Shown piece after piece: positions 19,144 to 43,100 of a stretch of 64,000 bases of DNA (the stretch's first letter is position 1; every line of letters starts with the position of its first letter). The translations under genes and the position numbers were made by a program. The notes below the pieces were generated by a model that was not told where the DNA came from, did no database searches, and worked only from the letters and a program-made list of their open reading frames with translations. The stretch is from Arenicola marina (Eukaryota > Annelida > Polychaeta > Arenicolidae), in the NCBI GenBank assembly GCA_964019135.1, contig OZ025255.1, positions 8,494,001-8,558,000 of the forward strand, written 5' to 3'.

Positions 19144-22100
19144 CTGAAACACAACAAGGCATTAAGGATACCAATATACATAAGAAACATAAATAGGCAA
19201 AAAGCATCTTCACATATTTAACTTTCACTTATTTTTCTAACATATATTTTTTATATTAATTTGTGCGCATTTCAACAATTAGATTTAGATCGTTATTTCT
19301 CGATATATATCAAGAAATAACGTTCAGTATTCTTGACATGAAGAAATGAATTCTTGAATTAAGGGAATAAATGTTAGGACGACCCGCTGCATGTTTTCTA
19401 TTTTCTTTTTCCCATACATATGTATGTTCACCGACTAAATTTACTGCATGCATTTGCTTCCGTATGATACAATTATAAATAACAAGCTTGCACATATATA
19501 TAGAGTTCTACAATGCCAATATAATCGTTAAGAGCTACATCTAACAGGGTCCCGACAAGAAGACATACGTTATATGAAGACAAAGGGGATTGAGCCACCG
19601 TTGACCCAGAAATCATACTTGGTAATTAAAATCTAGATGAATTTGGGACTCGTACTAGCCGCACGAGCTGATTGTCAGGGGGTGCACATCCCACCTAACG
19701 CACCCCACCAGACCCTATCCCGAGGAGATCGTCACAGGTCCACCCTCCTCCCTTCCCTCCCTGCCCAGTCAGCCAACTCCACCCCACCCCACCCCACCCC
19801 ACCTCGAGGAGATCGTCACAGATCCACCCTCCTCCCTTCCCTCCCTGCCCACCTCTAGTCAGCCAACTCCACTCCACCCTACCAGACCCCACACCACCCC
19901 ACCAGACCCCACCCCACCCTACCAGACCCCACACCACCCCACCAGACCCCACCCCACCCTACCAGACCCCACCCCACCCTACCAGACCCGACCACAGGGA
20001 GATCGTGCCGGGTTCACCCTCCTCCGTCACGCCCACCCCTCCCCTCCCCCCACCCTACTTACCAGGTGTGGGCCCGGGGTAGCTGGGTTGGGTTGCCCCA
20101 CTTCTCTATACAGAACAGCTGCGGCCCGTTGCTGCCGTAGAGCTCCGCGAAGCCGTTCATGGGGACACGTGACGTCCCGGTGACGAACTGCAGCAGTCGC
20201 GAACGCATTTCGTTGTTGAACGAGTAGACTGCCTGTGAACAGAACAATGGGGGCTGGTGGTCAACTCTGGTAACTCTTCTTGTTATTCCAATGAACTAAT
20301 TAATGATTAATTACTTGATACTGCAGTACATGCCTGGTATATGGGGTAGCTCTGAAACATGCCTCTCTGGGCACGCTCGGTAAACCGGAGCGACAGGTTT
20401 ACCGAGCGTGCCCAGAGAGGCATGTTTCAGGGCTAGTATATGGGGTACATATATTGATATACGGATAACGGATATCAATTGGCGAGCCTGGCTGCCGACT
20501 GGTGACTGGTGATCTTCAGCATGTTAAGTAATTTCGTTGTAAATTCAGTTATTTGGGTTACTGATAGATACAGAACCGTACTTATAACGTGAATGTATCA
20601 TAATTATAATGTGCATGTATCAATATGTATGATAGTCATAATATTCCAAATATTAACAAACTAACATTTATAATATTCAAATTATTAGCACATTGGCATT
20701 GATAATATTCAAATTATTAGCACACAGGCATTGATAATATTCATAATTTTAACACATATTAAAAATTGAATTATTCCTAATATTCATAATTTTAACACAT
20801 ATTACAAATTGAATTATTCCTAATATTCATAATTTTAACACATATTAAAAATTGAATTATTCCTAATATTCATAATTTTAACACATATTAAAATTGAAAT
20901 ATTCATAATATTCATGACTTTAACACATTCAAAATCAAAATATTCAAACAAAAAAAGAGAGCCTTATTGATTGATAAAAGAAAAACGACACCACCAGACA
21001 AGGAGGCAAAGTGCGCGCGCAACAAACCGCAGACGCTGCGATGTCGGGGACCATGACGTGACGTCACGAGATCACGTGATCAATGTAAGGTTGGTTGTAT
21101 ATTCGGGACGCTTTAACCACTGTTGGTCATATCGCGTCAATTGAAGAAGAAAGGGAAGAGTGGAGCTATGTCCCCGGGGGTAATCCCCTACTCTTTGCGA
21201 GAAAAGACATGGGATCTTTATCCTGAGACAACACAGACATGTCCACAACGGGGCACCGTACCACCGAACCACCGATCATGGATCAATGTAAGGCGTGAAG
21301 GAGCAGCGTTAGTTTGTGTATGAGGAGGCGCGGGGGAGGTTGAGGGGGGTGGGGGGTGGCACAGACCTTCCAGAAGTGGACTATGACGGGGTGGTTGGGG
21401 TTGTGAGGGGGGTACAGACCTTCCAGAAGTGGACTATGACGGGGTGGTTGGGGTTGTGACGAGGGTACAGACCTTCCAGAAGTGGACTATGACGGGGTGG
21501 CTGGGGTTGTGAGGGGGGTACAGACCTTCCAGAAGTGGACTATGACGGGGTGGTTGGGGTTGTGACGAGGGTACAGACCTTCCAGAAGTGGACTATGACG
21601 GGGTGGTTGGGGTTGTGACGGGGGTACAGACCTTCCAGAAGTGGACTATGACGGGGTGGTTGGGGTTGTGACGAGGGTACAGACCTTCCAGAAGTGGACT
21701 ATGACGGGGTGGTTGGGGTTGTGACGGGGGTACAGACCTTCCAGAAGTGGACTATGACGGGGTGGTTGGGGTTGTGACGGGGGTACAGACCTTCCAGAAG
21801 TGGACTATGACGGGGTGGTTGGGGTTGTGAGGGGGGTACAGACCTTCCAGAAGTGGACTATGACGGGGTGGTTGGGGTTGTGACGGGGGTACAGACCTTC
21901 CAGAAGTGGACTATGACGGGGTGGTTGGGGTTGTGACGGGGGTACAGACCTTCCAGAAGTGGACTATGACGGGGTGGTTGGGGTTGTGAGGGGGGTACAG
22001 ACCTTCCAGAAGTGGACTATGACGGGGTGGTTGGGGTTGTGAGGGGGGTACAGACCTTCCAGAAGTGGACTATGACGGGGTGGCTGGGGTTGTGACGAGG

Positions 22101-40100: not shown

Positions 40101-43100
40101 GGTTAACAGAACATTTTATACAGCTTCGGGGAGGGAAACGGAACAGCCGACGGTTAACTGAGAACATGTTGATACGCTGTTTAAGAGGGGAGGGGGAAAG
40201 GAAATGGAACGGCCGACGGTTAATTGAAAACACGTCATACAGCATGGGGGGAGGGAGATAAACAGTTCGCGAAGAACCGGTAAACGCCGTACGATTGTAA
40301 AGTCAACGTTGAGGTCTCACCCGACGGGTCGCTGCCAGGACGTTGTCCTCGTGTTGTGGTCCACGTAGTAGGTCCGTCCGCTGCCGTCTACCCGCTCCTC
40401 CCAGCCCGCCGGCAGCGTGCTCCGCCTGGTGGACAACACACATACTAAGGTCATCTCATGGTGGGTACCAAGGAACGCACGCTGGTAGTGAGCAAGGCTT
40501 ACGGGGCAGATATTATTGGGAGACAAATAGAGAGATAGCACGCAAAGGTCATTTATTGAAACTTTATGTTGTCGCTCGAGCGGACGGTGGATGAGGGAGC
40601 TCAATGGTTGGACAGTGGATACGCTATGATGGTGTGGGATTGAGCGTTCACTGGTTGCACTCACGTAGTGTGTGGCTCCTTTTAGCGTCAGCTTAGCGTA
40701 CACTGGTTGTACACACGTGGTGAGCCGCTTCCACTGAGCGTACACTAGCCGTGCACTGAGCGCACACTGAGTGCACACTGGTTGTACTCACGTGGTGGGC
40801 CGCTCCCACAGCGTACACTGAGTGTACACTGGTTGTACTCACAAGGTGGGCCGCTCCCAATGAGCGTACACTGGTTGTAATCACGTGGTGGGCCGCTCCC
40901 ACTGAGCGTACACTGGGCGTACACTGGTTATACTCACAAGGTGGGCAGCTCCCAATGAGCGTACACTGTGTATACATTGCGCGTAATCACGTGGCGGGCC
41001 GCCCCCACAGCGTACACTGGGCGTACACTGGTTGTACTCACGTGGTGGGCCGCTCCCACTGAGCGTACACTGAGCGTACACTGGTTGTACTTACGTGGTT
41101 GGCCGCTCCCACTGAGCGTACACTCACCGTACACTGGTTGTACACACGTAGTGGACCGCTCCCACTGAGCGTGCACTGTGCGTACTCACGTGGTGGGCCG
41201 CTCCCACTGCGTCGTACGCGTGTTGTGGTTGACGAAGAAGATCCTGCCCTGGTCGTCCCGCCGCTCCTCCCAGCCCGCCGGCAGTGGTTCGTCCGAGTCG
41301 GTGGAGTGGGACGCCACGCCGTCGCCGGGCTCGGGGGCGTCCCCCTCCGGTACATCCTGTGCCGGCGGCCCGTCCGTCTCGCTCGCGCCGTCAGCCTCAT
41401 TTTCATACGCGGGGGACTCCTCCTCCCCGTCCTCTGGCGCCGCTCCGATGTCCGGCAATGCGTTCTGCACGTCCACCATTTCCCATCCGGGCTGCAAGTG
41501 TTGTGGCAAAGACAGGACACGGGCAAACAGCGGGGGTTGGGGCGTGCACAGGGGGGAGCGTCGCGGGCACGGCGAGAGGAAGGGAGGTGGGAGAGAGAGA
41601 GAGAGAGATAGTCGATGTTCAGCCGTTCGGACTGTACTTAAATGTAAGCGACTGCAGTTATTCGGCACATTTGTAATGGGAAAATTACGCACGAATTACG
41701 CTAAGTTGGTAAGTATTAGTCATATATACAAATCCACATAAAAATCGGGATTTAGTTAAACTACCATCACAAACACGGTGGAAAATTTATACGAGCAGGT
41801 TATATTCGTGATAATATTGTTGGCCCAAGCAATGCAGACATCATCAGTTTACGTCATGACAAAACTCAATGATAAACGGCCTTAATTAAGAACAAGAATC
41901 AACTGAAGATGGTGGCATGTGCATTTTTTACACGGATAAGTTCGTGCATGTACTGATGATAGAAGGCAATAGAGAACGAGAGTCACATGATCAGGTGGAC
42001 AGAGAATCCAGCTCAGAAACATTCGATGAGTTCGATTTTGTACAGGGAAGGATCATAGAAAACGAGACGTGGCCGACTAAACACACGCTGAGCGACATCA
42101 GCTTCAGCCCTATTATGGCAGAACGTTTGTCACATAATATATGAAAAAAGAGCCTAACTGTTTCAAGAGTTCGAACCTGCAGTGTTGAGAAATATAGTCT
42201 TAGCGAGCTCAGCAGCTACATGTTTAAGCCCTTGCAGGAATTTGATGGGTTACTGAAGTGTGTGTTTCTGTGTAATTTCACTTGCATTTTGAAAAAACAA
42301 ATATTAGTGGCAATGCATTTAGATTGCCGTTCTGGAACATATTCGCAAAATGTATGTTAGATCCAAAACAAGTACGGCTCGCAATATTTCTATAAAAGAA
42401 GAAAGTGAAGGGCGAAAATATGCAGCATCTGGTCACGATACAAAGCTATAATGGAAATGTAGCGAAACTGATGTAAAGTATATGTCGTGTTTTAAAGGGA
42501 GTGGGGGTAATGATGGTACATTATGCAGAATGTTTAGACAGGAAAATGAATTAACCAGAAGGTGAATACATACTATCGCGCAAATATTGCTTTACCATAG
42601 CTTGATCACAATACAAATTACCCGTGTAAGGGGAATAGACCATTGATAACAGAGAATTCCATGCATGTTTGTTACTCTTTTGTCACTATCACATCACATA
42701 AATATTCCCTCATATTTGAACCCCGCTGCAAAACTAGACAAATGTGGCAGAAAGCCTTTTCTCGGCGAAAATTTCCTAAAAAGTGTCATAGCTGACATGA
42801 GATTGTAAATTGGACAAGGAGAGCGGTTGTGTGTGTAGAGCACAGTGGTAAGGGTCGGATACTGACCTCCTGAGGTGCTGCCTCCTCCTCCTCACCGTCT
42901 GCCTCGTCTCTCTCCCCCTCCTCCTCAGAGGCCCCTCCCGACTCAACTGGAAAGTAGGCCAGGTACAACCGAAGGTGTCCGCGCACGCGCGACTTGGAGC
43001 TGAAACAAACATCTCACAATCAGTCTTCATTATTCGCACATTTCGCTGGCATTGCAACAATGTCTTCGTTACGGATTACATAATATACAATGCCAGTCGG

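Follow-up and report, generated by a model that had tools for sequence, protein, structure and literature searches.

Five introns of a NEDD4-type gene in the analysed 64,000-bp stretch of DNA (the window) begin with tandem arrays that are built from the preceding exon's own tail, its 5' splice site and the adjoining intron, and similar arrays follow donors in other genes of the same genome. The feature belongs to a described class, the "mirages" of amphioxus, extended to an apparently new and distant lineage. We favour, with a probability of about 0.65, an explanation where the arrays are mirage-type minisatellites carried as tolerated passengers of a minisatellite-rich genome, and are not functional elements.

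Donor arrays in the NEDD4 gene

The gene was mapped by tblastn, using HECT homologues and a human NEDD4L sequence as queries. In total 24 coding exons were placed, wholly or partly; the one at about 40062-39895 was assigned by its open frame only, and the mapped part does not include the upstream exon(s). Exon numbers are those of the first-pass annotation, our own mapping counting one lower. For the HECT part, the 120 of 1010 matches listed (long proteins excluded) have Ridgeia (74%) and Tegillarca (72%) as best named relatives and include a metagenome protein at 81%. Ridgeia is again the best named match of the adjoining p66 gene, below eleven others among the 120 of 2365 matches listed, and the Ridgeia locus tags for NEDD4 and p66 are close, on contigs of equal length (NP493_532g03047 and g03040). 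These matches suggest that the genome is that of a lophotrochozoan, perhaps an annelid, rather than amphioxus. The p66/GATAD2-like protein itself (window 8533-11433, plus strand) is encoded in one long open frame with many Gly, Gln and Ala repeats.

All arrays were located by TRF, and the five donor arrays also by direct reading of the sequence. Each of the five donor arrays (Table 1) starts within the exon, runs across the 5' splice site and repeats on into the intron on the minus strand, the unit joining 13 to 65 nt from the end of the exon to the donor and some adjoining intron sequence. There are about 4 to 68 extra copies per array, counts that move slightly with the threshold. The first-pass annotation had placed such arrays at exons 8, 12, 16, 18 and 23, where TRF and direct reading recover them; at exon 12 the spacing is nearer to 37 bp than to the 40-50 bp given. 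As every unit traces back to the exon that it follows, the five arrays are independent events, as had been proposed. The accompanying claim that they span 5' but not 3' splice sites agrees with our mapping, in which no exon copy lies upstream of any of the 23 NEDD4 acceptors placed. The stop codon of NEDD4 was considered as a further amplified coding end and was ruled out, as the 21-bp array found there begins in the 3' UTR.

Table 1. The NEDD4-type gene and its tandem arrays (positions in the window; for each donor, the last exonic position is given)
Feature	Position	Strand	Donor	Copies	Spacing	Exonic part of unit	Basis and remarks
NEDD4-type gene (C2, WW domains, HECT)	19044..45145	-					tblastn exon mapping and splice-site refinement
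Mirage 1, exon 8 (WW exon end)	40732..41206	-	GTGAGT, after 41190	9	mostly 53 bp (42-75)	17 nt	TRF and direct reading
Mirage 2, exon 12 end (NLGPLP)	34778..35081	-	GTAAGA, after 35063	4-6, degenerate, depending on threshold	37 bp and longer	13 nt	TRF and direct reading
Mirage 3, exon 16	30030..31012	-	GTGGGT and G-rich intron head, after 30943	8	95-128 bp	65 nt	TRF and direct reading
Mirage 4, exon 18 end	28274..28873	-	GTGAGC, after 28833	6 beyond exon	exactly 87 bp	38 nt	TRF and direct reading
Mirage 5, exon 23 end	21361..25006	-	GTCTGT, after 24969	67 to about 68 beyond exon, depending on the count	53 bp	34 nt	TRF and direct reading
14-bp array	31309..33255	-			14 bp		sixth intron with an array near its start, 23 bp past the donor; no exon sequence
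Overlapping 20-bp and 84-bp arrays, last intron	19701..19993	-			20 bp, 84 bp		TRF; start about 70 and 170 bp past the donor at 20063; no exon sequence
Intronic 32/43-bp arrays	20638..20928	-			32/43 bp		about 400-500 bp upstream of acceptor; no exon sequence
21-bp array, NEDD4 3' UTR	18909..19016	-			21 bp		begins shortly past the stop codon; no coding sequence

Recurrence in other genes and minisatellite content

A scan of exon-intron junctions, which the first-pass annotation had proposed as a check, was carried out on a small sample of eight genes of this genome and yielded an excess at donors over acceptors: an exon copy was found past 10 of 58 donors and before none of 58 acceptors (Fisher P = 0.0013). 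Without NEDD4, where the arrays were first noticed, the result is borderline (5/35 donors vs 0/35 acceptors, P = 0.054). With dinucleotide-shuffled introns, none of the 58 donors was followed by an exon copy; the donor arrays are not due to chance and are not limited to NEDD4. In five arrays of NEDD4 and five of other genes the unit spans the exon/intron boundary and is of minisatellite size, with a modal spacing of 32-102 bp, and the GT of the donor is kept in 137 of 142 copies.

Four of the eight genes carry such arrays, namely NEDD4 (5/23 donors), its neighbour MAU2 (1/16, a 32-34-bp array; L006), an MCT-like gene in one of eighteen sampled stretches (1/1, a 51-bp array; L021) and a SMURF-like HECT gene (3/4). 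No donor arrays were found in the MEF2-like gene and the two EPHX4-like genes, the latter being a tandem pair of epoxide hydrolase genes that adjoins MAU2 (L004 6421 to L005 8144). The SMURF-like gene was sampled solely because of its HECT matches, and a HERC-like gene chosen alongside it has no arrays, so that arrays occur in one of two further HECT genes. The names MCT-like, SMURF-like and HERC-like are labels of our own. The junction counts omit EPHX-like exons with unclear ends, the HERC-like acceptors, one middle exon that could not be placed, first exons outside the mapped parts, and the genes noticed in L011, L016 and L022; they include the SMURF-like exon-1 donor (GTCAGT), which has a low donor score and a position set by the reading frame.

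The last exon of the MCT-like gene holds an array with a 93-bp period and about 27 units (L021 3641-6142), which contains the coding end and the stop codon and is the stop-codon counterpart of the donor mirages, with the same polarity. A 38-bp array with a donor-like motif (L007 1304-2116) was rejected as a donor mirage, as no adjacent exon was seen.

The genome is rich in minisatellites. In eighteen 10-kb stretches, taken at round positions on different contigs, TRF arrays with a period of at least 10 and a score of at least 100 account for 51,000 of 180,000 bases (28%), and base-shuffled versions of these stretches gave no TRF arrays. Coverage near NEDD4 is 5% in 80 kb of flanking sequence and rises to 19% in the window itself, which sits on a 44-Mb contig of the 867-Mb assembly. 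One sampled stretch (L017) is repetitive over its whole length, and the left edge of the window falls within a 19-bp array about 2.4 kb long (window 1-1849 and L007 9404-10000). A 63-bp array at L025 8976-10000 has one frame that is free of stops and resembles a coding repeat of 21 residues. The window also has a common ORF stretch starting MNEAEFPCEKCFGPRAN at 55476-55976 (minus strand) and 61562-62029 (plus strand), which looks like an interspersed element.

Tolerance, seeding and function

In the process that we favour, short tandem duplications would arise continually in a minisatellite-rich genome and expand to arrays. Where a duplication crosses the 3' end of an exon, the first copy in transcript order would retain the whole exon and its donor and, this copy being intact, the mRNA would be spliced there unchanged, so leaving the array free to drift and grow within the intron. 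A duplication across a 3' splice site, on the other hand, would place a copied AG and exon head in front of the real ones, would usually disrupt the mRNA and would be removed. The first donor is thus presumably the one that is used, copies at acceptors are probably harmful in most cases, and the donor/acceptor asymmetry would have been made by selection rather than by a mutation bias. That the arrays are tolerated because the exon-proximal donor is used had been suggested in the first-pass annotation, and we consider it a sensible reading. The stop-codon array of the MCT-like gene fits it as well, provided that the first stop is the one used. Amphioxus also has mirages at 3' splice sites, so acceptors cannot be absolutely barred.

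Acceptors are far emptier than random intron windows, 22 of 78 of which lie in repeats (P = 1.6e-6), and donors do not differ significantly from these windows (10/58 vs 22/78, P = 0.16), so that part of the pattern is an absence at acceptors. Among exon-interior windows, 2 of 32 have a copy nearby, which may be cases where the middle of an exon falls within a duplicated tail.

A mutational process that favours the 5' splice sites of transcribed genes, for example through R-loops at intron starts or collisions of polymerase and replication fork, might seed arrays there. An excess at donors is obtained when seeds are counted, whereas the comparison with random windows of the present sequence includes all the copies that an array has gained. 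With array pieces of one family merged by hand, a simple model of uniform seeding in tolerated places, and NEDD4 being pre-selected, 9 of 17 distinct intronic arrays span the donor as against 1.44 expected (P = 1.5e-6), and 4 of 9 as against 0.83 when NEDD4 is left out (P = 0.005). At ancestral positions, arrays occupy 9 of 53 donors compared with 3.0% of intron positions (P = 2.8e-5; 4/30 donors without NEDD4, P = 0.013). The seed count above uniform expectation leaves room for a possible donor-favouring process, in what is a small and model-dependent test. Against such a process, the donor motif does not appear as a general seed of arrays, since donor-like motifs were found at p < 0.1 in 6 of 66 units outside the window (9%), which is the chance level and equals the 9% for acceptor-like motifs; donors lie in repeats no more often than the random windows do; and the position of the donor within the unit shows no significant centring (KS P = 0.07, sd test P = 0.08). 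The process favouring 5' splice sites that the first-pass annotation had in mind is therefore favoured by the seed counts and disfavoured by the motifs and random windows, and we regard it as rather unlikely. The wider proposition that something about transcribed 5' splice sites in this lineage, and not tolerance alone, seeds tandem duplications, with about one donor in six carrying an exon-tail array genome-wide and stop codons showing the same polarity, appears slightly more doubtful still. A donor/acceptor asymmetry that can be measured offers a means to separate mutation bias from selection.

The copied donors could be ruinous to the gene. Use of the 137 copied GT donors is predicted to result in an in-frame stop in 134 cases and a frameshift in 1, with the frame left open in the other 2, and by a rough matrix 97 of the 137 match or exceed the score of the true donor. 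The gene would therefore rely on the spliceosome selecting the first donor, although equivalent ones follow. A row of up to about 68 near-identical donors, each beside the same exon tail and almost all of them harmful when used, makes such introns natural tests of how the first one is picked; a search of the open-licence literature for competing donors gave no match.

It is very improbable that the arrays are functional, with selection preserving a set of decoy donors near the exon that would modulate splicing or retain U1 snRNP. The GT retained in nearly all copies would fit such a role, but the exonic parts of the copies drift close to neutrally, with 21 synonymous and 65 nonsynonymous changes (pN/pS 0.77; nine of the ten arrays, MAU2 excluded), so that no evidence of function is seen. 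In the exon 23 array (69 units of 53 bp, the exon's own unit included), divergence from the array consensus is 1.05% at exon-derived and 4.86% at intron-derived sites, a difference that is due mainly to two intronic sites, which account for most of the latter value. Coding constraint on the exon 16 copies was likewise rejected, as the apparent excess of 8 synonymous over 2 nonsynonymous changes represents, by eye, only about three and two distinct sites. An expansion of the arrays by long-read misassembly is hardly credible, as the units diverge in sequence and length and such arrays occur in four genes spread over three contigs of chromosome scale (C8, C10 and C4), although the array lengths come from a single assembly and copy numbers may be off.

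Comparison with known boundary duplications

Tolerated mirage-type minisatellites, as we interpret the arrays, share features with several described systems. Intron gain by duplication of an AGGT proto-splice site, as presented in PMC2891723 (see also PMC4974935), likewise involves a tandem duplication that holds a splice-site motif. In the present case, however, no new intron appears to have been formed: the copies sit at one end of an intron already present, and the flanking exons continue the conserved NEDD4 protein. The internal tandem repeats in human segmental duplications (PMC2812944) are also boundary minisatellites that alter intron/exon length, but there the transcript is often altered, whereas here the predicted mRNA is unchanged. 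An earthworm metallothionein gene, with first-intron minisatellites and exon duplications that are missing from the final transcript (PMC12783039), is possibly a related case.

The closest correspondence is with amphioxus, and the arrays are thus not the undescribed class for which they had been taken in the first-pass annotation. There, minisatellite-like duplications of exon/intron boundaries, with cases at both 5' and 3' splice sites, have been termed "mirages", a name that goes back to Adh3; according to the same source, Adh3 data and RT-PCR suggest that regular splicing is undisturbed, length and somatic instability occur, and a role in intron gain has been proposed (PMC3087553). Another report extends the phenomenon to PGBD5 and cites TnC (PMC3902484). 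No report of mirages outside amphioxus was found among the matches listed from the open-licence literature, which is not proof of absence, and the present arrays suggest that mirages are not peculiar to amphioxus.

As in the Branchiostoma genes (Adh3, globin, TnC, PGBD5), we observe minisatellites at exon boundaries with copies that keep the splice signal, and the amphioxus units also range from tens to about 160 bp and occur in many copies. The arrays described here differ in being found in a genome that is not amphioxus-like, in reaching up to about 68 copies, and in occurring five times in one gene. They differ further in the boundaries involved, as amphioxus has both 5' and 3' cases and none of the 58 acceptors is affected here, the presence of both being a property of a set of arrays and not required of each one. 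What is new relative to amphioxus is thus the taxon, how densely the arrays occur, and their absence from acceptors.
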